Shown one piece after another: positions 5,389-21,550 of a stretch of DNA of 44,733 nt (position 1 is its first letter; each line of letters starts with the position of its first letter). This stretch comes from an uncultured Clostridia bacterium (GTDB taxonomy: Bacteria; Bacillota; Clostridia; Christensenellales; Borkfalkiaceae). The translations under genes and the position numbers were made by a program. The notes beneath the pieces are model-generated. The model did no database searches, was not told the DNA's origin, and saw only the letters and a list, made by a program, of their open reading frames with translations. Location of the stretch: assembly GCA_904373255.1 (NCBI GenBank), contig CAJFFD010000040.1:1-44733 (forward strand). The letters are read 5' to 3'.

Positions 5389-5407
5389 TTGATTCTCGCA
5401 TTATTGG

Positions 5408-6060
5408 TTCTCGCATTTTGTTTTGAGCTGACAAAACAAAACGCCGAGATGTTCGGGAGACACCGCCGCACGGCGCACTGCGCCTGACGGCATTTTCTCC
5501 CTCGTTGCGCCCGATTCGGGGCACACCAACCAATATGGGCGCAACTTCACCCTCTTCCCGCAAGCCGTATGTATGCGGCAATTTGGGGGCGCTTTTAGCG
5601 GCTACGCACGAGGTCGGTTTCTCGCAATACCCTGACGGGCATTGCTTGCTTCCGTCTCGGCTCCGCCGCCTTGTTCACGAAAATCTCGCTGCGCTGCGAT
5701 TTTCCGTGAGATATTCGGATATTATTTTAAAATAATATCTCGCGCGAGCAAAACGACGCATAGCGATAACTTTGTTATCGCGCAACATTGTCAATTTTGC
5801 ATGAATGCCCGCAAGCGGGCGCTCCGCAAAATTGACTGCGTTAGGTGCGCTGCGCACCCCTATTTGGCAATCCTTTGCCTTATGCAGGAAAGGTGAAATT
5901 GCGGCATTAATAATATGCGTGCCCTTAAAAATGCCGCAATGAGGAAAATGCCGCAATGAGGAAAACTCCGAACGCTTGAACGGCTTGCAAAGCGGCAAGC
6001 GTTGGGGTGTTCCTTCAATCTTGGAAATTTGTTTTGTCAGCTCAAAACAAATTTCAAGAA
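5408..6060. repeat. Structured intergenic repeat, copy A (653 bp)
   Basis: It fills the ssb-rpsR gap and has no convincing gene. Terminal hairpins are inverted copies of each other: TTTTGTTTTG / CAAAACAAAA around AGCTGA at 5416-5441, and GAAATTTGTTTTG / CAAAACAAATTTC around TCAGCT at 6024-6055. Inner hairpins include GTTGCGCCC / GGGCGCAAC (5504-5545), CACGAAAATC with GATTTTCCGTG (5676-5708), GCGATAAC / GTTATCGC (near 5762-5780) and ATTGCGGCATT / AATGCCGCAAT (5898-5940). The segment at about 5540-5675 closely matches 19925-20060 in copy C. Both ends carry a TTCT(C/T)(G/A) terminal motif. Confidence 0.85.
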
Positions 6061-6080
6061 TTTTTTAAGGAGAATTTATC

Positions 6081-6329
6081 ATGGAAGAGAATAAACCCGT
6101 CCGCAAGCCCATGAAACGGGCTCCCCGCAGGAAGGTTTGCGCCTTCTGCCAGGAAAAAGTCGAATATATCGACTATAAAGATGTGAACCGCCTGAAAAAG
6201 TACATCACCGAAGGCGGAAAAATCCTGCCCCGCCGCATGACCGGTACCTGCGCCATGCACCAGAGGGAACTTTCCAACGCCATCAAAAAGGCGCGCATCG
6301 TTGCTCTTCTCCCCTTCAAAGGAGAGTAA
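6081..6329 (+). CDS. rpsR: 30S ribosomal protein S18
   Basis: 82 residues, full length. S18 partners with S6 on the 30S platform. The zinc-ligand type (C+) is present: Cys20, Cys23, Cys57 and His60. Conserved [22 protein letters not shown] and [20 protein letters not shown] are present. A strong AAGGAGA site sits 8 nt before ATG 6081, just outside the right end of repeat copy A, so its translation start is kept free of the element. Confidence 0.97.
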
Positions 6330-6368
6330 AAGGCACCGCGCTCATTTTGCGGGCAACACAAAAAAAGA

Positions 6369-6400
6369 AGCGGACGGCTTTTTTGCCGTCCGCATTTTTT
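6369..6400 (+). terminator. Terminator of the rpsF-ssb-rpsR operon
   Basis: Stem GCGGACGGC / GCCGTCCGC (about 6370-6378 and 6385-6393) with a T-rich loop, followed by ATTTTTTATT. Confidence 0.88.
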
Positions 6401-6560
6401 ATTGAATTTTCCGCTGCTTCCGCACCCCCGCAAAGGGAGTTCTTGCGCGGAGCAGTTCGCGCCGGACTCCGCTTCGCCGCGCCGCCGCACCCTGCAACAA
6501 GTCAAATCGGCGGGCGCAGTTTTTCTGCGCCCGCCTTCGCTTTCCGTTGCGATAGTTTTC

Positions 6561-7718
6561 CTATACGATGAGCGCGTTCAGGTACCCGACGCCGATGAGC
6601 ACGGCGAGGAAGGAAAAGTTGAACGCCAAAAATTTGAGCACATATTTCCTCGTTTCGCCGGGGCAGACGCGGCGGAAAGTGTTGAGGGTGATGAGGCTTG
6701 CGAGCGAGGCGATGGGCGTACCCAACCCGCCGATGTTCACCGCGACGAGCAGGTTCGCGTAATCGGAAGTGAACTTCGAAAGCAGCACCGCCGAGGGAAC
6801 GTTGGAGATGACCTGGCAGGAGAGGGTGCCGAACGCGAGCGGGTCGAGCGCGACCAGCCCGCCCAGAAATTCCTCCACCGCGGGGATGCGCGCCAGATTC
6901 CCCGAAAACACGAAGAAGGCGCAGAATGTAAGCAGCAGCGAATAATCGACGCGCAGAAGCGCGCGGAAATCGAGGATGAGGAGGGCGACCACCACCGCGA
7001 GCAGTCCCCAATAATAGGGAAATACGCGGAAGACGATGAGAATGGAGAGCACGAACAGCGCCGCATAGGCGGCAGAGCGCCACGCGGACGGGCGGTTTTT
7101 GGGGCGGGATTGCACCTGCGCCGGTTCCGGCTTGACGAACAGGCACACGCCGAGGATGAGTACGAACGCCGCCGCGAACGGGAGCGCCATGATCTTGAAA
7201 AAATCGCCCGTCGGAATGGAATAATAGGAATACAGGTACAGGTTCTGCGGGTTGCCGAAGGGTGTGAGCATGCCGCCGAGGTTCGCGGCGATGTTCTGCA
7301 TGATGAACACGAAGGCGGTGAGCTTTTTGTTCCCGCACGATTCGAGCACGAAAAACCCGAGGGGCAGAAAGGTGACGAGCGCCATGTCGTTCGCCATGAC
7401 CATCGAGCCGAAATAGGTGACGAACACGAGCGCAAGCACGACGTTGCGCATATTTTTGAACCGCCGCACGATGATATCCGCCAGCCACTCGAAAAATTTG
7501 ATGTTCTTGAACGCCGCCACTACCGCCAGCGTGCAGAACAGGCAGGCGAGCGTATCCAGATCGAAATAGCCGAGGTATTCCCCGTCGAAGGGCACAAAAA
7601 AGCAGGTTATTCCCGCCGCGGCGAGCGCCACGATGAGCACGACGCTGCTCTTGGCGGCATGCCCGAGTGCCCAAAGCGCCCTGCGCCCGCGCGACGGCGT
7701 TTCCGTTTGTTCTTCCAT
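6561..7718 (-). CDS. SLC13/ArsB-type anion permease
   Basis: 385 residues and about ten hydrophobic segments. It belongs to the ion-transporter superfamily of dicarboxylate, arsenite and Na+/H+ carriers. Family marks include the re-entrant signatures NIAANLGGMLTPFGNPQN (about 145-162) and, in the second half, QVISNVPSAVLLSKF and GGLGTPIASLASLI, the twin Asn-Pro/Thr-Pro loops of this fold. The substrate cannot be read from sequence; anion such as a dicarboxylate, or arsenite, are options, and no ars neighbours are present. ATG 7718 has a GAGGAA site. It is a single-gene unit with its own promoter. Confidence 0.85.
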   Translation of the reverse strand: MEEQTETPSRGRRALWALGHAAKSSVVLIVALAAAGITCFFVPFDGEYLGYFDLDTLACLFCTLAVVAAFKNIKFFEWLADIIVRRFKNMRNVVLALVFVTYFGSMVMANDMALVTFLPLGFFVLESCGNKKLTAFVFIMQNIAANLGGMLTPFGNPQNLYLYSYYSIPTGDFFKIMALPFAAAFVLILGVCLFVKPEPAQVQSRPKNRPSAWRSAAYAALFVLSILIVFRVFPYYWGLLAVVVALLILDFRALLRVDYSLLLTFCAFFVFSGNLARIPAVEEFLGGLVALDPLAFGTLSCQVISNVPSAVLLSKFTSDYANLLVAVNIGGLGTPIASLASLITLNTFRRVCPGETRKYVLKFLAFNFSFLAVLIGVGYLNALIV

Positions 7719-7744
7719 AGCTTTTATTCCTCACAAACGGCACC

Positions 7745-7773
7745 ATTATACACCCGAACCGCTTTTTTTACAA
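7745..7773 (-). promoter_or_regulatory. Promoter of the SLC13-type permease
   Basis: On the minus strand: TTGTAA (7768-7773), 17-bp spacer, TATAAT (7745-7750). Confidence 0.75.
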
Positions 7774-7828
7774 CCGAAAAAGCAACAAAAAACGCACTTT
7801 TGCGCACCGGCTGTCTGTCCCGAAACGC

Positions 7829-7866
7829 TTGCTTGTTGTAACTATATTTATTACAATATGGTTGTA
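7829..7866 (+). promoter_or_regulatory. Promoter with overlapping inverted repeats upstream of the Sir2 remnant
   Basis: TTGCTT (7829-7834), 17 bp, TACAAT (7852-7857). Overlapping it are TTGTAA / TTACAA arms (about 7837-7857) and TACAA / TTGTA arms spaced by 5 bp (about 7852-7866), which look like an operator for a dimeric repressor. The regulator is not in the window. Confidence 0.55.
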
Positions 7867-7882
7867 TGGGAGGCGATCTTAT

Positions 7883-8227
7883 ATGGAAAAGGAAAAGCGC
7901 CCCGCCGCGGGCGGGGAAAACGGGGAAAACGAAAAAATCGAAACCCTGCGCGCATGGCTGGACGGCGCGGAATCCGTTATAATCGGCGCTGGTGCAGGGC
8001 TTTCGACCGCCGCGTCACCTACGGCGGCGAGCAGACGGTACGAGGCGTTTCTGCGGGAAAACGAGGGCAAAAAGGTGCTGTTTCTGGAGCTGGGCGTGGG
8101 CATGAACACCCCGGGCATCATCAAGTACCCCTTCTGGCAGATGACCTACCGCAACAAAAACGCGCGGTACGCCTGCATCAATCTGGAGACATCCGATTTG
8201 AATATCCTTTCGCGGCTGCACGGCTGA
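7883..8227 (+). pseudogene. Sir2-family NAD-dependent deacylase remnant
   Basis: A GGGAGG site precedes ATG 7883. Residues 35-44 (GAGAGLSTAA) are the Sir2 NAD-binding loop. The next expected segment (VTYGGE) is present only in another frame at about 8007-8030. The remaining frame then jumps to the C-terminal Sir2 part (RRYEAFLRENEGKK, LFLELGVGMNTPGIIKYPFW, YACINLETS). Roughly 170 residues are missing, including the catalytic His and the zinc Cys pairs. Intact members are about 280-300 residues. Promoter, ribosome site and terminator are intact, so the loss looks recent or is an assembly collapse. Confidence 0.8.
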
Positions 8228-8280
8228 AAGCAGCGGGAACAACCCGACCGCGCGGACGATACCGCTGTGCGCACGCGATC

Positions 8281-8320
8281 TGCCCGCCCTGCCGAAATTC
8301 GGCAGGGCGGGCAATTTTTT
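8281..8320 (+). terminator. Rho-independent terminator after the Sir2 remnant
   Basis: A 16-bp perfect stem (8281-8296 with 8298-8313) followed by ATTTTTTC. Confidence 0.88.
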
Positions 8321-8364
8321 CTGCTGCGGAAGCAATGAAAAATGCCGATTCGGCAGCCGCGCGG

Positions 8365-8394
8365 TTGCCAGCGGGGCGAGGCGTATGGTATAAT
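8365..8394 (+). promoter_or_regulatory. Promoter of the FHA-ABC operon
   Basis: TTGCCA (8365-8370), 18-bp spacer, TATAAT (8389-8394). Confidence 0.75.
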
Positions 8395-8417
8395 AGCGGG
8401 GAAAAAGGAGAACGCCC

Positions 8418-10046
8418 GTGAAAAACCTGATACTGAAAACGGAGGAAGGCGACCTGTTCCGCTTTACGGACAGCGAAGAGCGCACGGAGCTGACCATCGG
8501 CTCCAAGCGCACGGCGGATATCGTCGTAAAATCGCAGTATGTGGAGCCGGTTCAGGTGCGCTTGCTCCTGAAAAACAATATATGGTACGCGGAGGACATG
8601 ACGCCCGAAAACGCCAGGAGCGTGGTGTTGCTCGACGGGCGCCGCTTCAAGCGCCCGATGGTCAAGTTCGACGGCGTACTCTCCATCCGCCGCGCGGGGA
8701 AGAAGGAGAAGGCGGACATCGTGCGCATCTCCGCGGTGAAGCAGTTCAGCCGCAAAAAACCGAAAAACAACTTCGATCTGACCGCAAAGACGGTGACGAC
8801 GGTGGGCAGCGGCGAGGGATGCGACATCCGCGTGGATAACCCGCTCGTATCCGAAAAGCACTTTTTTATCGTGTTTGACGGGCAGAACTGCTACGTTGAG
8901 GACGCGCACAGCGTGAGCGGCACCTATGTGAACAACAAAAAGGTCAAGCGGCAGAAGCTGAACGACTACGACCGCCTGTCCATCCCCTCGGCGGCGTACA
9001 TATTCTACCGCAACGCCCTGCTCTTTTCCACGGCGGAGGGCGGAATCCGCATCGACGCGGTGGACGTGTGCAAGCGGGTGCAGGACAGGAACGCGCACGG
9101 GAAGATCTCCCTCGTGACGAACGTGACATTCCGCATCGAAGCGGGCGCGTTCGTGGCGGTGGTCGGCGGGAGCGGCGCGGGCAAATCCACCCTGCTCGAC
9201 TGCATCAACGGCATGCGCCCCGCGACGGACGGAAAAATCTACTACGACACCAACGACTACTATGAGAATATGAACACCTACAAGGGCGTCGTGGGGTACG
9301 TTCCCCAGCGGGACATCATGCACGACGATCTGACCCTTTGGGACGCGCTGCGCTACACGGCGCTGCTGCGCACGCGCGCAGACCTCTCCAAGGAGGAGCT
9401 TGCGGCGCGCGTGAACGCCGCGATCGCGGACGTGCATTTGCAGGGAAAGGAGCGCCTGCGCATCTCCTCCCTGTCGGGCGGGCAGAAAAAGCGGGTTTCC
9501 ATCGCCATGGAGCTGCTCTCCGACCCGAAGGTCATCTTTTTGGACGAGCCGACGAGCGGGCTTTCGCCCGACCTGGACATGGAGATGATGGAGCTTTTGA
9601 AAGATCTCTCCAAAAAGGGGCGCACCATCGTTGTCATCACGCACGCGATGGAGAACATCGACAAGTGCGACCGCGTGGCGTTTTTGGGGCGGGGCGGCAG
9701 GCTGTGCTATTACGGCCCCGCGCAGGAGGCATTCCGCTGGTTCAACCGCCGCAGCTATTCGCGCATCTTCGCGGCGCTGGCGGACGAGGAGACGAGCGAG
9801 GCGTTCGCAAAGAAATACCGCCGCTCCCCCTATTATAAGGAATTGTACGGTCAGCTCGTCGAGGAATACGGCAAGGGATGCTGCCTGCCGCCCGAAGCGG
9901 AAACGGAAAACGAGGCGGCATGGGAAAAGGCGCCCAGGCGCCTGCCGCGGCGGGTACGCACGGCGCATGCGGCGGCAGGCAGCAGCGCCGCCCGGGAAGA
10001 AGCCGCCGCGACGGATACGCGGGAGAGCGGGGAGGAAGATAAATGA
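8418..10046 (+). CDS. ABCG-like ATPase with two N-terminal FHA domains
   Basis: 542 residues starting at GTG 8418 (AAGGAG site). Residues 1-110 form a weak FHA-like domain. About 117-205 form a clear FHA domain (VGSGEGCDIRV, SEKHFF, SGTYVNNKKV), which reads phosphothreonine. About 215-440 form an ABC ATPase: Walker A GGSGAGKSTL near 250, signature LSGGQKKR near 351, Walker B VIFLDEPTSGL near 372, and an ITHAMENIDKCDRV switch. The last 100 residues are a charged linker. The FHA-ABC layout recalls mycobacterial Rv1747-type exporters, whose FHA domains are bound by a phosphorylated partner. It overlaps its permease by ATGA. No Ser/Thr kinase is in view. The substrate is unknown. Confidence 0.9.
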   Translation: MKNLILKTEEGDLFRFTDSEERTELTIGSKRTADIVVKSQYVEPVQVRLLLKNNIWYAEDMTPENARSVVLLDGRRFKRPMVKFDGVLSIRRAGKKEKADIVRISAVKQFSRKKPKNNFDLTAKTVTTVGSGEGCDIRVDNPLVSEKHFFIVFDGQNCYVEDAHSVSGTYVNNKKVKRQKLNDYDRLSIPSAAYIFYRNALLFSTAEGGIRIDAVDVCKRVQDRNAHGKISLVTNVTFRIEAGAFVAVVGGSGAGKSTLLDCINGMRPATDGKIYYDTNDYYENMNTYKGVVGYVPQRDIMHDDLTLWDALRYTALLRTRADLSKEELAARVNAAIADVHLQGKERLRISSLSGGQKKRVSIAMELLSDPKVIFLDEPTSGLSPDLDMEMMELLKDLSKKGRTIVVITHAMENIDKCDRVAFLGRGGRLCYYGPAQEAFRWFNRRSYSRIFAALADEETSEAFAKKYRRSPYYKELYGQLVEEYGKGCCLPPEAETENEAAWEKAPRRLPRRVRTAHAAAGSSAAREEAAATDTRESGEEDK

Positions 10047-10867
10047 AAAAGTTTAAACGCCGCTCCGCGCGCATGAACCGGATGCACTTCCGCGTGCTGG
10101 TGCGCCGCTATTTCAAACAGATCTTTACCAGCCTCGGCACCTTTCTTCCCCTCCTGCTGCAGGCGCCCGTGATGCTCGCGATCGTCTATATCGTCTGCGT
10201 AAAGGACGCGTTCATCCACAAAACGGCGGAATACCTGACGAGCGCGAACGTGGTGCTGTTCGTTTTGGTGGTGATGTGCGCGCTGATGGGGATCCTCAAC
10301 AGCTACCGCGAGATCTGCAAGGAGCGCGACGTGCTCTCCCGCGAAGTATTCGGAGGGTTGGATATTCCGGCGTACGTCCTCTCGAAATTTACCGTCCTTT
10401 CGGTCATCGGCATCGTGCAATGCGCGATTCTGTTTTTCGGGACGCTGCCCGCCATCGACTTTGCATTCCCCAACCCCGCCACGGGCTACCTGTGCGCGTA
10501 CGGCGCGATGGCGCTGACGAATATCTCCACCATGGCGATCGGGCTGTTCATTTCGGCTCTTTTGAAAAAATCGGAGAGCGCGATCCTGCCCGTGCTGTTC
10601 ATCATCATCGAACAGGTGGTGTTCTGCGACTGCCTGTTCACCCTCGAGGGCGGGGCGGGGTGGCTGCGCTACATCACCCCCAGCGCCTGGGGCATCGCCG
10701 TGTTCGGCAACGCGGCGGGGCTGAACGACTGGGCGCCGCCCCTCTTCCACAAAGACCTGTTCGCGCTGAACCCGCTCATCGGTTTGGGCGTGATGGCGGC
10801 GATCACCCTGCTGTTCGTCTTTTTGACGACGCTCCGGCTCAAACGGGCATACCGGCAGAAGGATTGA
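10043..10867 (+). CDS. ABC-2 type permease partner of the FHA ATPase
   Basis: 274 residues with a basic N-terminus followed by six predicted membrane helices, matching the transmembrane half of ABCG-type half transporters. The start overlaps the ATPase stop (ATGA), indicating translational coupling and a fixed stoichiometry. Conserved-looking features are the first-helix FLPLLLQAPVMLAIVY, the coupling region KERDVLSREVFGGLDIPAYVLSKF between helices 2 and 3, and the long extracellular segment before the last helix (about 200-240). In ABCG exporters ATPase and permease are usually fused; here they are split. It ends before a strong terminator at 10944-10982. Confidence 0.87.
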   Translation: MKKFKRRSARMNRMHFRVLVRRYFKQIFTSLGTFLPLLLQAPVMLAIVYIVCVKDAFIHKTAEYLTSANVVLFVLVVMCALMGILNSYREICKERDVLSREVFGGLDIPAYVLSKFTVLSVIGIVQCAILFFGTLPAIDFAFPNPATGYLCAYGAMALTNISTMAIGLFISALLKKSESAILPVLFIIIEQVVFCDCLFTLEGGAGWLRYITPSAWGIAVFGNAAGLNDWAPPLFHKDLFALNPLIGLGVMAAITLLFVFLTTLRLKRAYRQKD

Positions 10868-10943
10868 CCGCCCGCTTCGCTCACCGCTCTTTCGCTTTTG
10901 TGCGGAACGGCGCATTCATTTTTGAACGACAACCTGTGCGAAA

Positions 10944-10982
10944 AGCCGCGCCCGTTTGCTGCGGGCGCGGCTCTGTTTTTTA
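10944..10982 (+). terminator. Terminator after the ABC operon
   Basis: An 11-bp stem AGCCGCGCCCG / CGGGCGCGGCT (10944-10954, 10962-10972) followed by CTGTTTTTTATT. Confidence 0.87.
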
Positions 10983-11020
10983 TTGAACGTATTCTGTTTT
11001 TCGAGATATTTTGCGCCTTT

Positions 11021-11857
11021 CTATTTTTCGGCGCTCTCCGCCGCATCCCCTTCGAGCGGGGCATAGCGCTCCGCCGCCTCTTCCTCTTCGGCGATCTCCT
11101 CGGCGAGGTCGAACTCGTTCGGCTTTTCCTCCCTGCCGTACAGCAGGGTATGCACCGGCTTTTTCAGAAAGCGCATGATCGGCTTCATCACCACGCCGAC
11201 GAACACCGCGATGACGACGGTGCCGATGCCCACGCCGCGCAGCATGCCGCTCGTGCCGTCCAAAGACCAGAATACCTCGCTGTCCCAAAAGAAGGCGATG
11301 GACAACAGCGACGCGATTAAAATGACGGACACGTCGAAGATGATCTTGCAGGTAGAGAGGTGCAGCTTGGTGCGCTTGGAAAGCGCGAGCGTGACGCCCT
11401 CCCCCGGCATGCTCATGATGTTCGCTTCCAGATATAAAAATATACCGAAGGCAATGACGACCGTACTGACGATTATCAGGATCGCCTTCAGCCAGATTTG
11501 CTGATTTTCGGGCAAAAATAAGCCGTAGAGCGCGTCGGTGCCGTCCACCAGAAAGCCGAACAGCGTGGAGCTTGCCAGCTGCAGAACGCTGTACCATTTG
11601 AACTGCTTCCACAAAATGAGCGCCTGGATAATGAGGAAGCAGGTGAACACGATGATGATCCATGTGCCCATCGAAAGCTGCGTAAACTTTAAGCTCAACA
11701 CGTTCGGAATGGAGTTGACGGGCGAAATGCCCCAATTCGTCGAGCGCGAGAGCGATACGCCGCTCGCGATGAAAAACATGCCGACGACGTACGCAACGAG
11801 GCGGCGCCCCCATTCAAACACTTTCGCCTTCGTCGGCTTTGCGATTTGTACTTTCAC
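11021..11857 (-). CDS. YczE/YitT-like integral membrane protein (DUF6198 type)
   Basis: 278 residues from GTG 11857. This start is chosen because AGGAGAGGGG lies 5-8 nt before it; the ATG 18 nt upstream would include that site in the coding sequence. Six hydrophobic segments are visible. Typical family motifs are SGVSLSRSTNWGISPVNSIP (residues about 35-55) and ANIMSMPGEG (about 145-154). The C-terminal 45 residues are an acidic cytoplasmic tail (DLAEEIAEEEEAAE). Function in this family is unknown. It has a consensus promoter of its own. Confidence 0.82.
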   Translation of the reverse strand: MKVQIAKPTKAKVFEWGRRLVAYVVGMFFIASGVSLSRSTNWGISPVNSIPNVLSLKFTQLSMGTWIIIVFTCFLIIQALILWKQFKWYSVLQLASSTLFGFLVDGTDALYGLFLPENQQIWLKAILIIVSTVVIAFGIFLYLEANIMSMPGEGVTLALSKRTKLHLSTCKIIFDVSVILIASLLSIAFFWDSEVFWSLDGTSGMLRGVGIGTVVIAVFVGVVMKPIMRFLKKPVHTLLYGREEKPNEFDLAEEIAEEEEAAERYAPLEGDAAESAEK

Positions 11858-11909
11858 GTTTCCCCTCTCCTGCATAAATATGAATAATTATGCAAAATAG
11901 TTTATAAAT

Positions 11910-11938
11910 ATTATACAGGAGCGGGGCATATTTGTCAA
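11910..11938 (-). promoter_or_regulatory. Consensus promoter of the YczE-like gene
   Basis: Minus strand: TTGACA (11933-11938), 17-bp spacer, TATAAT (11910-11915), a perfect match to the vegetative consensus. Confidence 0.92.
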
Positions 11939-11956
11939 CCGCAATTGCGAAAATAG

Positions 11957-11985
11957 TTGCCAAACGCAGAAAAAAGCGGTATACT
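11957..11985 (+). promoter_or_regulatory. Promoter of the DUF4250 gene
   Basis: TTGCCA (11957-11962), 17 bp, TATACT (11980-11985). It is divergent from the YczE promoter, and the leader is only about 10 nt. Confidence 0.8.
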
Positions 11986-12002
11986 GGCAACGAGGTGAAA
12001 TT

Positions 12003-12179
12003 ATGCAGCTGCCGAAAGACCCTGTGATTTTATTGAGCTTTATCAATATGAAACTGCGCGATTATTACCCTTCCCTCGCCGCCCTGTGCGACGATTTGGG
12101 CGCGGACGAAGAGGAAATTCGCAAAGCGCTCGCTCAAATCGGGTACGAATACGCGGCGGATAAGAACGCGTTCGTTTGA
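12003..12179 (+). CDS. DUF4250 domain protein (58 aa)
   Basis: A short gene with a GAGGTG site before ATG 12003. The translated sequence opens MQLPKDPVILLSFINMKLRD and continues with YYPSLAALCDDLGADEEEI and a YEYAADKNAFV end, matching the small Clostridia/Lachnospiraceae DUF4250 family in length and pattern. It reads as a tiny helix-turn-helix-like fold of unknown role. It is 23 nt from the next gene on the same strand, so probably in one unit with it. Confidence 0.85.
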   Translation: MQLPKDPVILLSFINMKLRDYYPSLAALCDDLGADEEEIRKALAQIGYEYAADKNAFV

Positions 12180-12202
12180 GAAAATAGACAGGAGATTCTG
12201 CC

Positions 12203-12632
12203 ATGTTTGCCCGCGTTTACGACAGGGAACGAAACCGCTATTATAAATCGATCGTCTATGCGATATTGGACATAGGGTATCATTCAAAAGCCATCCGTAT
12301 ACGATTCTGCCGCCGATTGCTTTGCCCTCGTGGATTATTTCGATAAAAAGGCGAACGATCTGCTCCCGCAATATGAGATTATAAACGACACGGATAAAGA
12401 CAGCCGGGTCTACAAGGAGAAAGCATTCCTCCTGAAGCTGAAAAAATATTGCCGTGAACAGGGATACGACGCCGCCGCCCTTCAATGTTTTTACGGCTAT
12501 AAGGACGAGTGCATTTTATGGGCGGACGACAACCTATACGAAAAGGATTTTGCCGAGGACGAAAACGGGCACCTGAACTATCGCGGTTCGTATATCAAGG
12601 CGCTGAATTTAAAGTGGCGCAAGGTCGATTGA
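12203..12632 (+). pseudogene. Conserved small soluble protein with a one-base frameshift, function unknown
   Basis: An AGGAGA site precedes ATG 12203. The first 31 codons (MFARVYDRERNRYYKSIVYA and on to YHSKAI) run into a second frame from about 12296 that continues VYDSAADCFALVDYF, LLPQYEIINDTDKDSRVYKE and ends LNLKWRKVD at 12632. One extra base near 12295 separates the frames. Joined, the protein would be about 142 residues, soluble and rich in Tyr, Asp and Lys. I cannot name the family. The frame break is either an indel error or a real lesion. Confidence 0.65.
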
Positions 12633-12645
12633 AATTTGTTTCGGC

Positions 12646-12677
12646 AAAAGGCTCTGCAAGTTGCAGAGCCTTTTTTG
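12646..12677 (+). terminator. Rho-independent terminator
   Basis: Stem AAGGCTCTGCAA with TTGCAGAGCCTT and a T6 tail. It may also serve the convergent protease gene. Confidence 0.85.
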
Positions 12678-12685
12678 ACGGTTAT

Positions 12686-13641: not shown

Positions 13642-13786
13642 TTTTCCTCCTTCTCCTGCCCCACCGCGCGCGGCGGGGCAGCGCACAGCGATCCGCAGAA
13701 AAGTCCTTCCGGCAAATTTGCGGCTGGTGCTTTTTTAACACACCCGCCCGACGTACGCGGGCGCGATGACAAAACGCAACTTGTTC

Positions 13787-13815
13787 AAAAAAAGCGCGCC
13801 CGTGCGCGCTTTTTT
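13787..13815. terminator. Bidirectional terminator downstream of degV
   Basis: AGCGCGC / GCGCGCT stem flanked by A7 on the left and T6 on the right, so it can terminate in both directions. It ends the fab-acc-degV operon. Confidence 0.82.
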
Positions 13816-13832
13816 CGCCCCGATCGGGGAAA

Positions 13833-14648
13833 TCAATTATTCGTGACATACGCCGCGCCGAACGCGCCCACGCCCGTATGGATGCTCAACACAGGCCCGA
13901 GCACGCGCTGGTGGATGTACACCTGCGGGAAGCGGCTTTTCAGCATAGCGGTAAAGTCGTTCACGTCCGTCTCCGCCCCGCAGCGCCCGACGATGAGGCG
14001 GCGGACGTTATCGGGCACGAGACTGCACAGCATTTCCAGCTTTTCGCGGCTGCCGCGCGCGTTCGCTTTGAAGAGGATTTTGCCCTTCAGCTCGAATACG
14101 GGGCGCAGATTCAACGTCGCTTTCGCCTTGGCGTTGTTCAGCCTCCCGCCGTACAGGAGCCTGTCCAGCGATTCGACGGAGAACACGATGCCGATCTTCT
14201 TTTTCAGCTCCTCCAGATGCGCGGCGATCTCCTCGAAGGACAGCCCGCACTTGACCATGTTGACCGCCTCGTCCGCCAGAAGGTGAAGCCCGGGGCCGAT
14301 GGTCGCCGAGTCGATGACGCGGATGTTGCCGCCCACCTGATCCGCCGCGAAGCATGCCGACGAATAGGTGCCCGACAGTGCGGAGGAGAGGACGATGCAG
14401 ATGACGTCGCAACCCTTATCGGTGAGCGACTGGAAGGTGCGGATAAAGTTGTTGAGCGCAGGCTGTGCCGTTTTGCAGGGGCTGAGCCGCGCCATGAGCG
14501 GCAGAAAGTCGCCGTTTTTATCCGACGCGTTTTCCTCGTAAAAGTAGCCGCCCAGCTGGTAATTGAGCGGAACGACGCTCAATATGCCGCGGCTGGTGAT
14601 CTCCGCGGTCGAATAGCCGACGGACGAATCGGTGACGATAGCGACCAT
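13833..14648 (-). CDS. DegV family fatty-acid-binding protein (FakB-like)
   Basis: 271 residues, full length. DegV/FakB proteins bind a fatty acid and present it to the kinase FakA for acyl-phosphate formation. Seen: N-terminal IVTDSSVGY, the loop VLSSALSGTYSSA (about 85-97) that holds the carboxylate, and the C-terminal LGPVLSIHTGVGAFG (about 250-264). The ribosome site is GGGAGGG. It lies 41 nt after accA with no terminator between, so it is the last gene of the fatty acid operon. That placement argues for a role in recycling or importing fatty acids. FakA is not in the window. Confidence 0.9.
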   Translation of the reverse strand: MVAIVTDSSVGYSTAEITSRGILSVVPLNYQLGGYFYEENASDKNGDFLPLMARLSPCKTAQPALNNFIRTFQSLTDKGCDVICIVLSSALSGTYSSACFAADQVGGNIRVIDSATIGPGLHLLADEAVNMVKCGLSFEEIAAHLEELKKKIGIVFSVESLDRLLYGGRLNNAKAKATLNLRPVFELKGKILFKANARGSREKLEMLCSLVPDNVRRLIVGRCGAETDVNDFTAMLKSRFPQVYIHQRVLGPVLSIHTGVGAFGAAYVTNN

Positions 14649-14689
14649 ATTTCCCTCCCTTTGTAGCCCTGTTTAATTCTCTTTGCCCC

Positions 14690-15454
14690 TCAAAACTTCC
14701 GGAAGCGCTCGTACCGCGCCTCGATGAGCGTTTCGGCGGGAACTTTGCACTTTTCGGCGAAGAATGCGGAAATATCCTCTTTGAGCTTGGAGAAAAACTC
14801 CTCGTTAAACTCGTTTTCGGGCAAAACGCGCTCCACCGCGCCGAGTTTTTGCAGGTTGTCGGCGGTGAGCTTCAAGCACTCCGCCGCCTCGGCGACCTTG
14901 GCGCTGTCCTTCCACAGGATGGACGCGCAGCCCTCGGGCGAAATGACCGAATAGGTCGCGTTTTCGTCGATCCACACCTCGTCCGCCGCGCACAGCCCGA
15001 GCGCGCCGCCGCTGCCGCCCTCGCCGATGATGACGGAAAGGGTGGGCGTTTTCAGGCGGATCATCTCCAGAATGGAAGAGGCGATCGCCTCGCTCTGACC
15101 CCGCTCTTCGGCGCCGATGCCGCAATATGCGCCCGACGTATCCACAAAACAGAGCACGGGGCGGTGAAATTTTTCCGCCTGCTTCATCAGTCGCACCGCC
15201 TTGCGGTAACCCTCGGGGTGCGCGCAGCCGAAGTTGTGCTCGATGCGCCCGTTGGTATCCGCGCCCTTTTCAATGCCGATGACGGTGACGGGTCTGCCGC
15301 CGATCGTGCCGATGCCGCCGATGACGGCGCGGTCGTCCGCATAGCGGCGGTCGCCGTGCAGCTCGATAAAATTCTCCACGATTTCGGAGATATAGCGCAC
15401 CGCGGTGGGTCTGCCCTTCTCGCGGCTCTTTAAAACGATTTCGTATGCGTTCAT
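14690..15454 (-). CDS. accA: Acetyl-CoA carboxylase carboxyltransferase subunit alpha
   Basis: 254 residues. With AccD it moves the carboxyl group from biotin to acetyl-CoA, giving malonyl-CoA. ATG 15454 is chosen because GGGGAGG lies 9 nt upstream and the accD stop is one base away (TGACATG). Crotonase-fold marks include the oxyanion-hole glycine stretch GEGGSGGALG and PEGCASILWKD. It lacks about 60 N-terminal residues found in E. coli AccA, as is common in short clostridial forms. Confidence 0.95.
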   Translation of the reverse strand: MNAYEIVLKSREKGRPTAVRYISEIVENFIELHGDRRYADDRAVIGGIGTIGGRPVTVIGIEKGADTNGRIEHNFGCAHPEGYRKAVRLMKQAEKFHRPVLCFVDTSGAYCGIGAEERGQSEAIASSILEMIRLKTPTLSVIIGEGGSGGALGLCAADEVWIDENATYSVISPEGCASILWKDSAKVAEAAECLKLTADNLQKLGAVERVLPENEFNEEFFSKLKEDISAFFAEKCKVPAETLIEARYERFRKF

Positions 15455-15455
15455 G

Positions 15456-16334
15456 TCAGTTCGCCTCCCCGCAGTGCAGCTGCAGCAGCTGCGCAAGTTT
15501 TTCCTTCATCTCCTTGCGCTCGACGATGAGGTCGGCAAACCCCTTCTGCTGCTGGAATTCCGCGCGCTGGAAGCCCTCGGGGAGCTTCTGCCGGATGGTC
15601 TGCTCGATGACGCGCGGCCCCGCAAAGCCGATGAGCGCGCCCTTTTCCGCCATGATGATGTCCGCCTCGAACGCGAAGGATGCGGAAACGCCGCCCGTGG
15701 TCGGGTCGGTGAGAACGGAGATGTACAACAGCCCCGCCTCGCTGTGTTTTGCGACCGCGGCGCTGGTCTTTGCCATCTGCATGAGGGAGATGATGCCCTC
15801 GTGCATGCGCGCGCCGCCGCTGAGGGCAAACCCTACGACGGGCAAGCCGTGCTCTGTGGCATACTCGAACGTTTTCGTGATCTTTTCGCCGACGGCGTGA
15901 CCCATGCTGCCCATGATGAAGCGATAGTCCATGGAGAACACCGCGCAACGAACGCCGCCGATCTCGGCGGTGCCGCACACAACGCCCTCGTTTTCGCCCG
16001 TCTTTTCGCGAAGCGCGGCGAGCTTTTCGTCGTACCCGGGGAAGTCGAGTACGTTTTTGCCGACTTCATCCGCGAACAGCTCCTCGAAATTTTCCGCGCA
16101 CATAGCGATGCGCGCGCGGGGCGGCATCTTCTTATAGTGACCGCACTTGGGGCAGACGCCGAAGTTCTCCTCCATTTCGTCGGAGAGGACGATCTGCCCG
16201 CATTTTTCGCACTTGACGGCGAGTTTTTCGGGGATCGCGCCCTCCTGTGCGGGCTTTGCGGCGGGGTCTTCCGATCCCTCCAAAGCGTTTTTCGGTTTTC
16301 TGAAAAAAAACTTTTTAAAGTCTTCGAACTTCAA
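15456..16334 (-). CDS. accD: Acetyl-CoA carboxylase carboxyltransferase subunit beta
   Basis: 292 residues. The N-terminal zinc ribbon has Cys42, Cys45, Cys61 and Cys64, followed by the crotonase-like carboxyltransferase domain (SMDYRFIMGSMG, SGGARMHEGIISLMQMAKT, DPTTGGVSASFA). An AAGGAG site precedes ATG 16334. It is tightly coupled to accA and separated from accC by 169 bp. Confidence 0.96.
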   Translation of the reverse strand: MKFEDFKKFFFRKPKNALEGSEDPAAKPAQEGAIPEKLAVKCEKCGQIVLSDEMEENFGVCPKCGHYKKMPPRARIAMCAENFEELFADEVGKNVLDFPGYDEKLAALREKTGENEGVVCGTAEIGGVRCAVFSMDYRFIMGSMGHAVGEKITKTFEYATEHGLPVVGFALSGGARMHEGIISLMQMAKTSAAVAKHSEAGLLYISVLTDPTTGGVSASFAFEADIIMAEKGALIGFAGPRVIEQTIRQKLPEGFQRAEFQQQKGFADLIVERKEMKEKLAQLLQLHCGEAN

Positions 16335-16503
16335 TTTAATATCTCCTTCGAATATCCCGCTCGGGGCATGGGATGTATGCTCTTCTTTTTTCTTCCTTTT
16401 TCGGCGGCACGGCCGCGCTTGACGCCGCGCGCCGACTTTTTATCGCGTACGATTGTCTTGTTCACGTTTATCCCGCGCGCACCTTTGCGCGCGCTCCCTT
16501 ACC
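16335..16503. other. accC-accD spacer, no clear gene
   Basis: The spacer holds a GC-rich inverted repeat (GCGCGC arms near 16475-16495) just after accC on the transcribed strand. A basic open frame of about 50 codons from a GTG near 16463 overlaps accD; it lacks a good ribosome site and is not called. Confidence 0.4.
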
Positions 16504-17850
16504 TCAATGATAGTTTTTTAAGAATTTATCCAAAAAATTGGTGCAGTAGCTTCCGTCTTTGAACTCCGGCTGGGCGAGTATATCCCCCGACAGCTCGGCA
16601 TTGGTATGCACGCCCTCGATGACCAGCTCGCACAGCGCCGCCTGCATCTTGCGGATCGCTTCGGTGCGGTCGCGCGCGTAGACGATGAGTTTGCCGATCA
16701 TGCTGTCGTAATAGGGCGGGATCCGATAATCCTGATAGATCGCCGTATCGAAGCGCACCCACGGCCCGCCCGGGATATGCAGGAGGGATATCCTGCCGCA
16801 GCTGGGGCGGAAGTTGTTGCGCGCGTCCTCCGAATTGATGCGGCACTCGATGGCGCAGCCGCGCAGGCGGACGTCTTCCTGCTTATACAAAAATTCGATG
16901 CCCGCCGCGATGCGGATCTGCCATTTGACCACGTCGATGCCCGTGACGTATTCGGTGACGGGGTGCTCGACCTGCAGGCGGGTGTTCATCTCCATGAAAT
17001 AGAAGTTGTTCTGCCTGTCCAGCAAAAACTCGATGGTGCCGAGGTTGGTGTAGTTGACCGTTTTGGCGGCGAGAACAGCCGCCTCCATCATCTTTTTGCG
17101 CACGTCCGGCTTTAACGTGACGCACGGGCTCTCCTCGATGAGCTTCTGGTTCTTGCGCTGCATGGAGCAGTCGCGCTCGCCCAGGCAAACGACGTTGCCC
17201 TGCTCGTCCGCGACGATCTGCATTTCGACGTGCTTGACGTCCGTCAGGAATTTTTCGAGGTACACCTTGCCGTTGCCGAAGGCGCTCTTCGCCTCCGCCG
17301 ACGCGGTGAGGACGGCGTTTTCGAAGTCCTCTTCCTTCTGCACGATGCGGATGCCCCTGCCGCCGCCGCCCGCGCTCGCCTTGACGATGACGGGGTAGCC
17401 GATTTCGGCGGCGAACTTTTTCGCCTCGGCGATGTCGGTGATTTCGTCCAGCCCGGGCACGACGGGAACGCCCGCCGCCTTCATGGTGCGGCGCGCTTCG
17501 TCCTTGTCGCCCATCTTGGCGATGACCGACCAGTGCGGGCCGATGAACTTGATGTTGCACTTTTCGCACAGCTCGGCAAAGCGCGGATTTTCGGACAGAA
17601 GGCCGTAGCCGGGGTGGATCGCCTGGCAGCCCGTCGCGATGGCGACATCGATGATGGCGGTCATGTTGAGGTAGCTGTCCTTTAAGAGCGCGGGGCCGAT
17701 GCAGTAGCTCTCGTCCGCGAGGTTGACGTGCAGCGCCTCCGCGTCCGCCTCCGAATACACGGCGACGGTGTGGATGCCCATTTCGTTGCAGGCGCGGATG
17801 ATACGAACGGCGATTTCGCCGCGGTTGGCTATCAATATTTTACTGAACAT
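16504..17850 (-). CDS. accC: Acetyl-CoA carboxylase biotin carboxylase subunit
   Basis: 448 residues, full length. An ATP-grasp enzyme that carboxylates the biotin on AccB using bicarbonate. N-terminal FSKILIANRGEIAVRIIRA, the glycine-rich lid KASAGGGGRGIRIV, metal and substrate residues in MEMNTRLQVEHPVTE, and the C-terminal GGPWVRFDTAIYQDY are all present. It lies downstream of accB but is separated from it by repeat copy B. Confidence 0.97.
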   Translation of the reverse strand: MFSKILIANRGEIAVRIIRACNEMGIHTVAVYSEADAEALHVNLADESYCIGPALLKDSYLNMTAIIDVAIATGCQAIHPGYGLLSENPRFAELCEKCNIKFIGPHWSVIAKMGDKDEARRTMKAAGVPVVPGLDEITDIAEAKKFAAEIGYPVIVKASAGGGGRGIRIVQKEEDFENAVLTASAEAKSAFGNGKVYLEKFLTDVKHVEMQIVADEQGNVVCLGERDCSMQRKNQKLIEESPCVTLKPDVRKKMMEAAVLAAKTVNYTNLGTIEFLLDRQNNFYFMEMNTRLQVEHPVTEYVTGIDVVKWQIRIAAGIEFLYKQEDVRLRGCAIECRINSEDARNNFRPSCGRISLLHIPGGPWVRFDTAIYQDYRIPPYYDSMIGKLIVYARDRTEAIRKMQAALCELVIEGVHTNAELSGDILAQPEFKDGSYCTNFLDKFLKNYH

Positions 17851-17857
17851 AAAAACT

Positions 17858-17999
17858 CCTCACACTTTTTGTTTTGAGCTGTCAAAACAAAAAGTCGTGA
17901 TTTTCGGAAAACTCCGATTGTACCGAGCGTAGCGAGGGCAATGGGGTTGTCCTCAAATCTCGGAAATTTGTTTTGTCAGCTCAAAACAAATTTCGAGAA
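17858..17999. repeat. Structured intergenic repeat, short copy B (142 bp)
   Basis: It lies between accB and accC. It is essentially two terminal hairpins with about 60 bp between: ACTTTTTGTTTTG / CAAAACAAAAAGT around AGCTGT (17864-17895), and GAAATTTGTTTTG / CAAAACAAATTTC around TCAGCT (17963-17994), the latter with an outer TCTC / GAGA extension and a bulged G. The right hairpin is nearly identical to that of copy A. It looks like an internally deleted form of the longer copies. Confidence 0.85.
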
Positions 18000-18003
18000 C
18001 CTC

Positions 18004-18462
<459 letters not shown>

Positions 18463-18486
18463 TCCCGATTACTCCCGAATGTCTAT

Positions 18487-18526
18487 AAAAAATGCGTCTA
18501 TTGCAATTTTCATGAAATAAACGCAT
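18487..18526 (-). terminator. Terminator-like hairpin between fabF and accB
   Basis: On the minus strand, ATGCGTTTAT pairs with ATAGACGCAT (one mismatch or wobble) across a 15-nt loop and is followed by TTTTTT. It sits inside the operon and could reduce transcription of the acc genes relative to fab. Confidence 0.65.
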
Positions 18527-18536
18527 AATTCAGTGT

Positions 18537-19769
18537 TCAGATTTTCCGAAAGGCGAGGCAGCCGTTGTGCCCGCCGAACCCGAGCGACGTGGAAAGCGCG
18601 AATTTGAGATCCGCCTTGACCGCCTCGTTGGGGGTGATGTCGAGGTCGCACTCCTCGTCCTTTACGCGGTAATTGACGGTGGGAGGCACGATGCCCTCGT
18701 CGAGCGCGAGGATGGAAGCGATCGCCTCGATGCCGCCCGCCGCGCCGAGCATATGGCCCGTCATCGACTTGGTAGAGGACACGCGCAGTTCATACGCGCC
18801 CTGCCCGAACGCGCGCTTTAAGGCGAGCGTTTCCGTTTTATCGTTGAGCGGGGTACCCGTGCCGTGCGCATTGACGTACACGTTCCTGCCCGCGGCGATG
18901 CCGCCCTCCTTTGCCGCGAGCTCGACCGCCCTTGCGGAAGCGATCGCCTCGGGGTTGGGCGCCGTCATGTGATAGGCGTCGTTGGTGCAGCCGTAGCCGA
19001 CCACTTCGGCGTAGATCTTCGCGCCGCGCGCCTTGGCGTGCTCGTATTCCTCGAGCATGACGACCGCGCCGCCCTCGCCCATGACAAAGCCGGCGCGCTC
19101 CTTGTCGAACGGAATGGACGCACGGTTCTTATCCTCCGCCTGCGAGAGAGCCTGACAGCTGATGAAGCCCGCAAAGCACAGCGGGGTGATCGCCGCCTCG
19201 CTGCCGCCGGCGAGCATCGCATCCGCATAGCCGTGCTTGATGGCGCGGTACGCTTCGCCGATGCTGTTGGTAGAAGTTGCGCAGGCCGTGACGACGGCAA
19301 TGTTCGGGCCCTGCGCATTATATTTGATTGCCACCGTGCCCGACGCGATATTGGAGATCATCATCGGGACAAAATAGGGAGAAACCCTGCCGGGGCCCTT
19401 TTCGACTAATTTGGAATGTTCGGTTACCAGCGTATGAATGCCGCCGATGCCCGAACCGATATACACGCCGAACCGCTCCGGTTCGATGCTTTCGGCGGTC
19501 ATGCCGCTGTCCTCATACGCCTGCGTAGCCGCCGCGACGGCGTACTGGCAGTAGAGGTCGGTCTTGCGGACGTCCCCCTTCGGCATATAGAGGGTGGGGT
19601 CGAAACCGCGGACTTCGCCCGCGAATTTGCACTTATAGTCCGTGATATCGAACTTGGTAACGGTATCGATGCCGCAGACGCCCTTTTTCATATTTTCCCA
19701 GGTCGTTTTTGCGTCATTGCCGAGCGGGGAAACCGCGCCCAGCCCTGTTACGACGACTCTTTTTTCCAT
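18537..19769 (-). CDS. fabF: 3-oxoacyl-ACP synthase II (FabF)
   Basis: 410 residues, full length. It elongates acyl-ACP by condensing it with malonyl-ACP. The Cys-His-His catalytic triad is Cys163 (VTACATSTNS), His302 (NAHGTGTPLND) and His339 (SMTGHMLGAAGG). ATG 19769 is chosen for the AAGGAG site 8 nt upstream; the longer in-frame reading would extend into repeat copy C. It lies downstream of fabG across copy C. Confidence 0.96.
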   Translation of the reverse strand: MEKRVVVTGLGAVSPLGNDAKTTWENMKKGVCGIDTVTKFDITDYKCKFAGEVRGFDPTLYMPKGDVRKTDLYCQYAVAAATQAYEDSGMTAESIEPERFGVYIGSGIGGIHTLVTEHSKLVEKGPGRVSPYFVPMMISNIASGTVAIKYNAQGPNIAVVTACATSTNSIGEAYRAIKHGYADAMLAGGSEAAITPLCFAGFISCQALSQAEDKNRASIPFDKERAGFVMGEGGAVVMLEEYEHAKARGAKIYAEVVGYGCTNDAYHMTAPNPEAIASARAVELAAKEGGIAAGRNVYVNAHGTGTPLNDKTETLALKRAFGQGAYELRVSSTKSMTGHMLGAAGGIEAIASILALDEGIVPPTVNYRVKDEECDLDITPNEAVKADLKFALSTSLGFGGHNGCLAFRKI

Positions 19770-19782
19770 AAAAAAACTCCTT

Positions 19783-20280
19783 TTCTCACGAAAACCTCGG
19801 CGAGCTGACGCCTGCGGTTTTCCGTGATTTGAGGGCGACACCGCCGTTTAAACGCTTTCGCGTTTTCTGCGCGTTTTCTCCCTCTTTGCGCCCTTTTTTA
19901 GGGCTCTCATACCTTTATGCGCGCAAATTCACCCTCTTCCCATAAGCCGTATGTATGCGGCTACTTGGGGGCGCTTTTAGCGGCTACGCACGAGGCCGGT
20001 TTCTCACAATGCCCTGTCGGGCATTGCTCGCTTCCGCCTCGGCTCCGCCGCCTTATTTATAATAATCTCTCGCGCAAGGAAAATCACTATTTTGATAATT
20101 TCTCGAAAAAGGCAAAACCACGCTTTTGCCTTTTTCACTCCATTTGCCGATACCTCGGCTCACGGAAAGGGTGAAGTTGCGCGATTTTGTAATATGCGTG
20201 CCTTTAAATATCGCGCAACGAGGGCAGAGCCCTCAATCTCTCGACTTTTTGTTTCGTCAGCTCGAAACAAAAAGTGAGAA
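19783..20280. repeat. Structured intergenic repeat, copy C (498 bp)
   Basis: It fills the fabG-fabF gap. Left hairpin 19787-19826: CACGAAAACC with GGTTTTCCGTG enclosing GGCG / CGCC around AGCTGA. Right hairpin 20244-20275: ACTTTTTGTTTCG / CGAAACAAAAAGT around TCAGCT with a bulged G and CTC / GAG outside. Inner hairpins: TTTGCGC / GCGCAAA (19885-19927), AAAAAGGCAAAA / TTTTGCCTTTTT with a 6-nt loop (20106-20135), GTTGCGCGAT / ATCGCGCAAC (20176-20219), then GAGGGC / GCCCTC (20220-20234). About 135 bp (19925-20060) closely match copy A. Confidence 0.87.
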
Positions 20281-20285
20281 AGAAA

Positions 20286-21023
20286 TCACATATCCATTCC
20301 CCCGTCGACCCGCAGAACGACGCCCGTGATGTAGCGCGCCGCGTCGGAGACGAGGAATTTGACCGCCTGCGCGATGTCCTCCGTTTCGCCCAGAGCGCCG
20401 AGGGGAATGAGCTTGTACATCGCCTGTTTCTGCTCCTCGGTGAGGGCGTCGGTCATCGCCGTTTTGATGAACCCGGGTGCGACGGCGTTCGCCGTGATGT
20501 TCCGCGAGCCGAGCTCCTTGGCGACCGATTTGGTCAGCCCGACGATGCCCGCCTTGGACGCGGCGTAATTCGCCTGCCCCGCGTTGCCCATAAGCCCGAC
20601 GACCGAGCTGATGGAGACGATGCGCCCGTAACGCTTGCGCATCATGTACGGGGTGACGTGCTTGACCATGTTGAAGCAGCCCTTGAGATTGATGCCGAGC
20701 ACCCTGTCCCAATCCGCTTCGTCCATGCGCATGATGAGCTTATCCGCCGTGATGCCCGCGTTGTTGACGAGGATATCGATTTTGCCGAAATCCTTGACGA
20801 TCTGGTCGACGACCGCCTTTGTTGCCGAAAAATCGGATACGTCGCAACGATAATAGCGCGCGGTGACGCCCGCTGCTGCGAGCGCGTCCATCGTATCCTT
20901 AGCGGCGGATTCGTCGCTGTAATCGACGACGGCGATGTCGGTATTGTCCTGGGCGAGGGTGAGCGCGATCTTCGCGCCGATTCCCCTGCCCGCGCCCGTG
21001 ATAAGGGCGACTCTGTTTTCCAT
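20286..21023 (-). CDS. fabG: 3-oxoacyl-ACP reductase (FabG)
   Basis: 245 residues, a short-chain dehydrogenase using NADPH. The Rossmann motif TGAGRGIG is at 9-16 and the catalytic Ser140, Tyr153 and Lys157 are in SISSVVGLMGNAGQANYAASK. NNAG is at 87-90. ATG 21023 is chosen because GGAAGG precedes it by 7 nt and MENRVALITG is the usual start; the longer frame would run into repeat copy D. Repeat elements flank the gene on both sides. Confidence 0.95.
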   Translation of the reverse strand: MENRVALITGAGRGIGAKIALTLAQDNTDIAVVDYSDESAAKDTMDALAAAGVTARYYRCDVSDFSATKAVVDQIVKDFGKIDILVNNAGITADKLIMRMDEADWDRVLGINLKGCFNMVKHVTPYMMRKRYGRIVSISSVVGLMGNAGQANYAASKAGIVGLTKSVAKELGSRNITANAVAPGFIKTAMTDALTEEQKQAMYKLIPLGALGETEDIAQAVKFLVSDAARYITGVVLRVDGGMDM

Positions 21024-21036
21024 AAAAAAACCTTCC

Positions 21037-21545
21037 TTCGCGCGAATCTCGCAAAAGAGATGCTGCGATTCGCTTGATTCCAAAGAAAACCCGCGGGCGC
21101 GCGGCTTTGCCGCTGACCGCCTGTTTTCTCTCTTTGCGCGCTTTTTTAGGGCTCTCATACCTTTATGCGCGCAAATTCACTCTTTCCGCGTATGCCCTTC
21201 GGCATATCGGGGGCAAAAGCAAAAAGCGTCGTTTTTGCTTTTGCAAATAATTGTTTCTGCTCACGAAAATCTCGGCGCGCTGTCGCCTGCGGTTTTCCGT
21301 GATTTGGGTGCAAAAACGAAAATTACGATTTCCGTTTTTGCAAATAATTATTTTAATAATCAACTGCGCGTTCCAAAATCACAATTTTGGATTAGCGCAC
21401 TCAATTTGTCGCATACTTGCGACCTGAGCGGGTGAAGTTGCGCGATTTTATAATATGTGTGCCCTTAATTATCGCGCAACGAGGGCAGAGCCCTCAAAAT
21501 CGCAAAAAATCGCAGGCGTCAGCTCGCCGAGATTTTCGCGAGCAA
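21037..21545. repeat. Structured intergenic repeat, copy D (509 bp)
   Basis: It fills the fabD-fabG gap. Hairpins: left 21040-21073 (GCGAATC / GATTCGC), TTTGCGCGC / GCGCGCAAA (21133-21175), GCAAAAGCAAAAA / TTTTTGCTTTTGC with a 6-nt loop (about 21212-21243), middle 21262-21301 (CACGAAAATC with GGTTTTCCGTG), a TGCAAAAACG / CGTTTTTGCA stem (about 21308-21343), GTTGCGCGAT / ATCGCGCAAC (21437-21480), GAGGGC / GCCCTC (21481-21495) and right 21503-21540 with loop TCAGCT (21519-21524). Stretches at 21127-21180 and 21430-21500 are near-identical to copy C. Confidence 0.87.
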
Positions 21546-21550
21546 TTTTT

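Follow-up and report, generated by a model that had tools for sequence, protein, structure and literature searches.

MITEs are short, non-coding elements with inverted ends and a patchy occupation of sites. REPs, as described in the sections of the literature cited here, are located near gene 3' ends, between unidirectional or convergent genes, and REP ends near gene 3' ends often supply the stop codon (PMC3733652); the words Firmicutes and Clostridi are absent from the main text of the REP survey. The repeats described below form a real and abundant family that lies outside the catalogues searched (Rfam) and represents a modular type that is new to the wider REP-like class, the anatomy and distribution of which were observed directly.

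The window, i.e., the whole stretch of 44,733 nucleotides that was analysed, belongs to G000, a draft genome of 1.92 Mb in 165 contigs that is 73% complete, while its close Borkfalkia relative G013 exhibits 88-90% identity to G000 across the fab genes. A preliminary description had placed four copies of a mosaic repeat between 5408 and 21545 and ascribed to them shared ends and near-identical blocks. The four copies were located at those places (BLAST intervals against G013 elements: 5406-6059, 17860-18001, 19785-20280 and 21035-21542), and the shared sequence was confirmed as direct blocks (D1, 169 nt at 86%, and D5, 68 nt at 94%) and as inverted ends common to the copies (I1-I7). RNA folding z values against dinucleotide shuffles were -16.5 (20 shuffles) for element 1 and -6.9, -11.4 and -11.2 for elements 2, 3 and 4, respectively, and DNA folding of element 4 (the fourth copy) returned -10.6 against dinucleotide shuffles.

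The unit of the family is an arm of ~200 nt which, read in mRNA sense, comprises five hairpins (A-E), and a full element consists of an arm, an AT-rich centre and an inverted arm, i.e., two arms head-on. Hairpin A is terminal, with a frame such as TTCACG..CGTGA and the loop AGCTGA; hairpin B is GC-rich and occurs in short and long forms; hairpin C carries the loop GGGCACRCATATTA; hairpin D is small and is followed by CAAATNGRGTGCGC; and the stem of hairpin E is mostly A/T. In element 2, a B-type middle is enclosed by hairpin A on one side and by its inverted counterpart on the other, and G013 possesses a 691-bp gap at this site. The model R1 was built from hairpin C and detects this hairpin alone, so that diverged arms are missed. 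The features of the window are as follows (coordinates, strand, feature, evidence).

5391..5406, plus: GATTCTCGCATTATTG, directly before element 1, possibly left over from the end of an older element (sequence)
5407..6060, plus: element 1, two arms, ssb/rpsR gap (repeats, fold, BLAST)
5407..5450, plus: element 1 hairpin A, loop AGCTGA (sequence, fold)
5504..5545, plus: element 1 hairpin C, 5' arm (sequence, fold)
5878..5951, minus: element 1 hairpin C, inverted arm (R1 match)
6019..6060, minus: element 1 inverted terminal hairpin A (inverted repeat I1)
17858..18001, minus: element 2, short form, accB/accC gap (repeats, fold, BLAST)
19783..20280, minus: element 3, two arms, fabG/fabF gap (repeats, fold, BLAST)
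19785..19828, plus: element 3 inverted terminal hairpin A, adjoining the fabF ribosome site (I2)
20156..20230, minus: element 3 hairpin C, 5' arm (R1 match)
20239..20279, minus: element 3 hairpin A, adjoining the fabG stop codon (I7)
21037..21545, minus: element 4, two arms, fabD/fabG gap (repeats, RNA and DNA fold, BLAST)
21039..21078, plus: element 4 3'-end terminal hairpin, of a different type (sequence)
21258..21305, no strand given: element 4 internal extra A-type hairpin (I3, D9)
21417..21491, minus: element 4 hairpin C, 5' arm (R1 match)
21497..21544, minus: element 4 hairpin A, adjoining the fabD stop codon (I2, I3)

The genes flanking element 1 we take, from their translations, to be ssb and rpsR. 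A short tandem duplication, AATGCCGCAATGAGGAA, is present in element 1 at window 5925-5955 and absent from the same site in G013. Elsewhere in the window, a gene at 22375-23179 (minus strand), presumably fabK-like, is split over two frames near 23.09 kb, and the G013 stretch at this gene is 99 bp longer than the window.

The four copies are far from being the only ones, and the proposal of a multi-copy family is upheld: copy 3 returned 115 blastn matches within its own draft genome. When up to one mismatch was allowed, the loop pattern TAATATGYGTGCCYTTAA was placed at 35 positions in G000 and at 40 in G013, the reversed control being found in neither; the pattern was detected in 11 of 61 relatives, all belonging to the same genus. 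Copy density was derived from an unbiased 394.5-kb sample of G013, self-comparison of which yielded 40 intervals of at least 60 bp that make up 15.6 kb, or 4% of the DNA, which extrapolates to ~200 intervals per genome. Elements are found at or near contig ends in G000 (C11, C51, C58, C62, C116, C122 and others); the repeat therefore probably breaks assemblies, and copy numbers would be underestimated. R1 returned 65 matches in the G013 stretches, reduced to 57 arms in 38 regions by removal of four overlap duplicates and four matches with E >0.02; 24 regions are single-arm and 14 multi-arm, the latter including seven plain head-on pairs and four more with both orientations. R1 matches were present in 36 of 40 Borkfalkia genomes and in nine of 200 genomes of the order (G000, five of a sister genus and three of another family), per-genome counts representing lower bounds because just 121 or 24 candidates were scored. 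The arm layout was recognisable by eye at the fetched sister-genus and other-family loci. Exact loop matches in unrelated taxa (10 of 28 stretches) were dismissed as chance level, since simple arithmetic predicts ~15 in 257 billion bases.

The absence of a catalogued counterpart was borne out for Rfam, whose covariance models returned no match at gathering scores in the window; with the limit relaxed to E = 1, one sister-genus arm still had no match and element 3 gave two sub-threshold matches of 18.5 and 16.7 bits against cut-offs of 90 and 41. Among the titles and abstract openings listed, a body of literature to which most subscription journals are external, these repeats are undescribed.

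Placement relative to genes, determined with a hexamer gene caller, is highly uneven. The 40 G013 intervals comprise 32 between unidirectional genes, seven between convergent genes and one between divergent genes, the last overlapping a called gene; in terms of gaps, 0 of 38 element-bearing G013 gaps are divergent versus 28 of 96 element-free gaps >150 bp (p=3e-5). The 55 G000 elements include 40 unidirectional and seven convergent cases, eight with a missing neighbour and none called divergent. In G013, 22 of 39 elements have an end 12 nt or less from a stop codon, as do 37 of 52 in G000, overlapping cases being counted and the gap-weighted null being 0.22; when all gene 3' ends are considered, 59 of 105 are within 12 nt of an element end and 30 are >50 nt away. 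Hairpin A faces the stop codon in 18 and the start codon in six of the 24 G013 single arms. Placement is looser in the sister genus and the other family, where the A end of 22 arms faces the stop codon in 12 cases and the start codon in nine, with one unknown, and where one of the 22 arms lies between divergent genes. At two loci of the sister-genus genome G232 (L188 8420-8470 and L192 6780-6830), the stop codon called for the upstream gene falls within hairpin A, and the element may therefore supply the gene end.

Elements inside operons and after stop codons are what would be expected if the hairpin chains were host-beneficial RNAs that, as operon spacers or 3' ends, protect mRNA or tune neighbouring genes, with selection on RNA keeping the stems paired. 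Against this, arms are found in either orientation to genes (A at the start in 6 of 24 in Borkfalkia and 9 of 22 in other genera), and the orthologous operons of related species occur without elements. A role as terminators was also considered and rejected: the region 17800-21600 holds 11 terminator-like sites versus 5.7 when shuffled, and terminators are an insufficient account because four of the 11 sites are in elements and seven in genes.

The stems vary greatly while pairing is retained. In a set of 83 hairpin C sequences, picked by their loop (at most two mismatches), 13 of which lack a perfect 8-bp stem, pairing extends to 91.4% of cells, both sides change in nine of ten pairs, and the covariation score is 0.682 versus 0.177 for shuffled and at most 0.181 for slid alignments. 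For hairpin A, inner stem positions are paired in 55-80% of rows versus 28-39% when shuffled, over 124 sites that were picked by A loop and outer frame and that include chance genomic sites. The 130 kb of G232 examined contain the word TATTCTGC at 29 separate positions (permuted words: mean 4.8, maximum 23), 14 of them flanked by TCAC and GTGA with differing stems; GAGCTGAC is found twice in the same 130 kb, against 78 occurrences in Borkfalkia stretches that total 583 kb and were partly chosen for elements. Stem variation is thus seen within a single genome, and a difference in the A loop between the two genera.

Comparison of orthologous hairpins corroborates the matched nature of these changes. 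In the 25 G000/G013 hairpins that could be aligned at 75% or above, 231 pairs are the same in both genomes and 20 have changed on both sides and still pair, versus 0.7 such double changes expected by chance, while five pairs changed on one side and one broke. Some of the double changes represent exchanges of hairpin alleles found elsewhere, and where a hairpin is repeated within one element both copies have changed in the same way. The strong stem covariation would suit a host-beneficial RNA, as would the mismatches in mRNA sense (G-U 45 versus A-C 26, others 95; p=0.03, both genomes, copies not being independent), a weak G-U excess that leaves room for some selection on RNA. The preponderance of double (20) over single (5) changes, in turn, is unlike stepwise compensation, and overall we regard a host-beneficial RNA as a tentative explanation with a minor share of the probability. 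Template switching has been published as a source of paired hairpin changes, in the portion of that study cited here (PMC8794818).

Patchy presence at orthologous sites was checked between species, and both fab sites differ in occupancy. Of 21 genomes compared at the fabD-fabG site, 16 exhibit gaps of 27-99 bp without an element and five possess elements; at the fabG-fabF site, elements were seen by eye in 10 of 20 genomes, G035 (128 bp, doubtful) being counted as without. When placed on a FabD+FabF tree, fabG-fabF occupancy is not clustered and requires at least eight changes, or five on well-supported branches alone. Some element-free genomes at the compared sites carry unrelated sequence or a gene instead; L118 (G014) and L127 (G020) hold an open reading frame, presumably sugar-phosphate isomerase-like, between fabG and fabF. 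A second repeat type, with the motifs TGTCATTTCGAGCGGAGC / TGTCATCCTGAGCGGAGC, was observed beside or inside elements at L178 (G013:C10, ~72285-72536) and in the G030 fabG-fabF gap.

Between G000 and G013, 14 of 15 compared sites are occupied in both genomes and whole hairpins differ, which substantiates the mosaic, modular layout proposed in the preliminary description in that entire hairpins are exchanged at shared sites. The comparison covered the 15 G000 sites whose two flanks could both be located in the sampled G013 DNA, L068 and L089 being left out as contig-edge loci, and the fifteenth site is represented in G013 by an open reading frame. With 14 of 15 sites shared, recent movement is rare at that distance. 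Such stability of sites with differing modules would be consistent with old, immobile repeats remodelled by gene conversion and template switching alone, their patchiness reflecting loss. The matched double changes, the identical changes in both copies of a repeated hairpin and the precedent for template switching (PMC8794818, as far as cited here) agree with this, while the 16 of 21 element-free fabD-fabG gaps (27-99 bp) and the fabG-fabF changes (at least eight, or five) mean that gains or many clean losses are needed, and immobility is accordingly considered unlikely.

Remodelling appears to focus on hairpin apices. All 17 matches of cassette G are located immediately 5' of the C loop, in C hairpins with several stems, and all four matches of module X directly follow the CTGA of the A loop, with four stems, the closing stem coming directly next in two of these four; matches covering under half the query were dropped in both cases, and some are orthologous G000/G013 pairs and hence not independent. 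At L096 the start of the G000 element falls within a hairpin A, intact in G013, and short remnants similar to that at L096 precede a few other elements, including element 1 of the window. Furthermore, in two G013 composites (C10 60235-61113 and C7 6323-7134) a second element follows, by eye, the ATTATT of the other's centre. Taken further, these junctions could reflect recursive, hairpin-on-hairpin mobile DNA, in which modules or elements insert or exchange at apices through a loop-recognising activity, the loop, which is AGCTGA for Borkfalkia and TATTCTGC for the sister genus, serving as a family address and the stems drifting freely while pairing; we view this as possible but rather doubtful.

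Candidate mobilising activities were also sought. Of 40 genomes, 23 possess Y1_Tnp, the presence of which does not track the elements: the drafts G001, G003, G026, G028 and G035 lack it and contain 24-96 R1 matches, and six fetched Y1 loci, among the ~60 Y1 matches listed, had no R1 match, which speaks against RAYT mobilisation. Retro-mobilisation was rejected, RVT_1 being present in four of 40 genomes and in neither G000 nor G013, as were mobile carriers, the loop having no exact match in viral contigs and copy 3 no match in phages and plasmids. For 25 elements, the right ends of which were called crudely, flank matches indicative of target duplication were the same as in shuffles, as is expected of REP-type movement. 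No autonomous or parent copy was seen by eye in the G013 sample, multi-arm regions included.

These results weigh on a MITE of a conventional DDE-type transposon whose interior has been scrambled by recombination. Inverted ends, the lack of coding content, intergenic location and patchy occupation would all fit such an origin; the 25 elements without target duplication above chance (right ends crude), the lack of a parent in what was searched and hairpins along the whole element rather than just at its ends do not, rendering it the least probable of the readings and quite improbable in itself.

The reading we favour, to which we attach an even chance, is that of a high-copy, non-autonomous family that is REP/REPIN-like in its working, has a larger, five-hairpin arm as its unit and is remodelled at the apices. 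Mobilisation in trans of a REP/REPIN-like element is compatible with the placement, the head-on pairs, the lack of target duplication and the patchy sites; the junctions at apices and the matched changes in stems are compatible with hairpins that break or undergo template switching. Copies would reach new sites via a putative enzyme, supplied in trans, that reads a hairpin plus its loop; insertion just after a stop codon would survive because it leaves intact both the reading frame and the ribosome site that follows. Hairpins that form in single-stranded DNA may undergo breakage or stalling close to the apex, where rejoining to other copies, or template switching with them, would swap stems and cassettes while self-complementarity is kept; both the spreading enzyme and the apex mechanism are inferred. 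Counting against this reading are the failure to find a mobilising enzyme in the drafts searched, the sharing of 14 of 15 compared sites, the looser placement in the other genera and the weak G-U excess. SbcCD cuts hairpins near the loop; SbcD was found in four of five genomes searched, above cut-off in two, which shows the availability of a hairpin nuclease and nothing more.

The family adds a large structured repeat, outside the catalogues searched (Rfam), to a gut lineage, and makes testable the long-standing question of how palindromic repeats keep paired stems while their sequence turns over, the candidate answers being selection on folding, template switching and exchange at hairpin apices. 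Loops that differ between two genera provide a handle for finding the spreading factor, and constant loops combined with stems that change in matched pairs offer a good system in which to study how structured repeats spread and are remodelled.

The preliminary description regarded these repeats as unlike the named classes, a view that holds in part. They resemble MITEs in being short, non-coding and patchy and in possessing terminal inverted repeats (I1-I7, head-on arms), but differ in having hairpins throughout, no target duplication above chance and no parent transposon found. BOX elements, compared by description and in the sections cited, are composite, modular and non-coding, with a variable middle, a predicted fold and a length of up to several hundred bases, all of which is reminiscent of the present family; in BOX, however, the number of tandem boxB units between boxA and boxC varies (PMC3049150), whereas Borkfalkia arms are inverted copies in which single hairpins are swapped. 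Differences from REPs concern the unit (~200 nt and five hairpins versus 20-40 nt), the tag (GTAG or CGTC adjoins just two of 36 left ends), the Y1 transposase, which does not track the elements, and the cassettes nested at hairpin apices. REP tag and unit size thus fail and no linked tyrosine transposase was found, and given the features that failed when tested we do not assign the family to REP, REPIN or MITE in the strict sense. The view is less well supported as regards placement, pairing and modularity, which resemble those of REPs, REPINs and BOX, respectively, within the cited sections of those sources. As with REP/BIME/REPIN sequences, the family is high-copy, intergenic, palindromic and near gene 3' ends (PMC3733652), and the REP-type location (intergenic, near gene 3' ends, away from divergent pairs) is found in Borkfalkia and more loosely in other genera; the stop codon supplied by a REP end has a parallel in the sister-genus copies with a called stop within hairpin A, and the pairing of REPIN units in inverted orientation (PMC3116915) is matched by the head-on arms of Borkfalkia.
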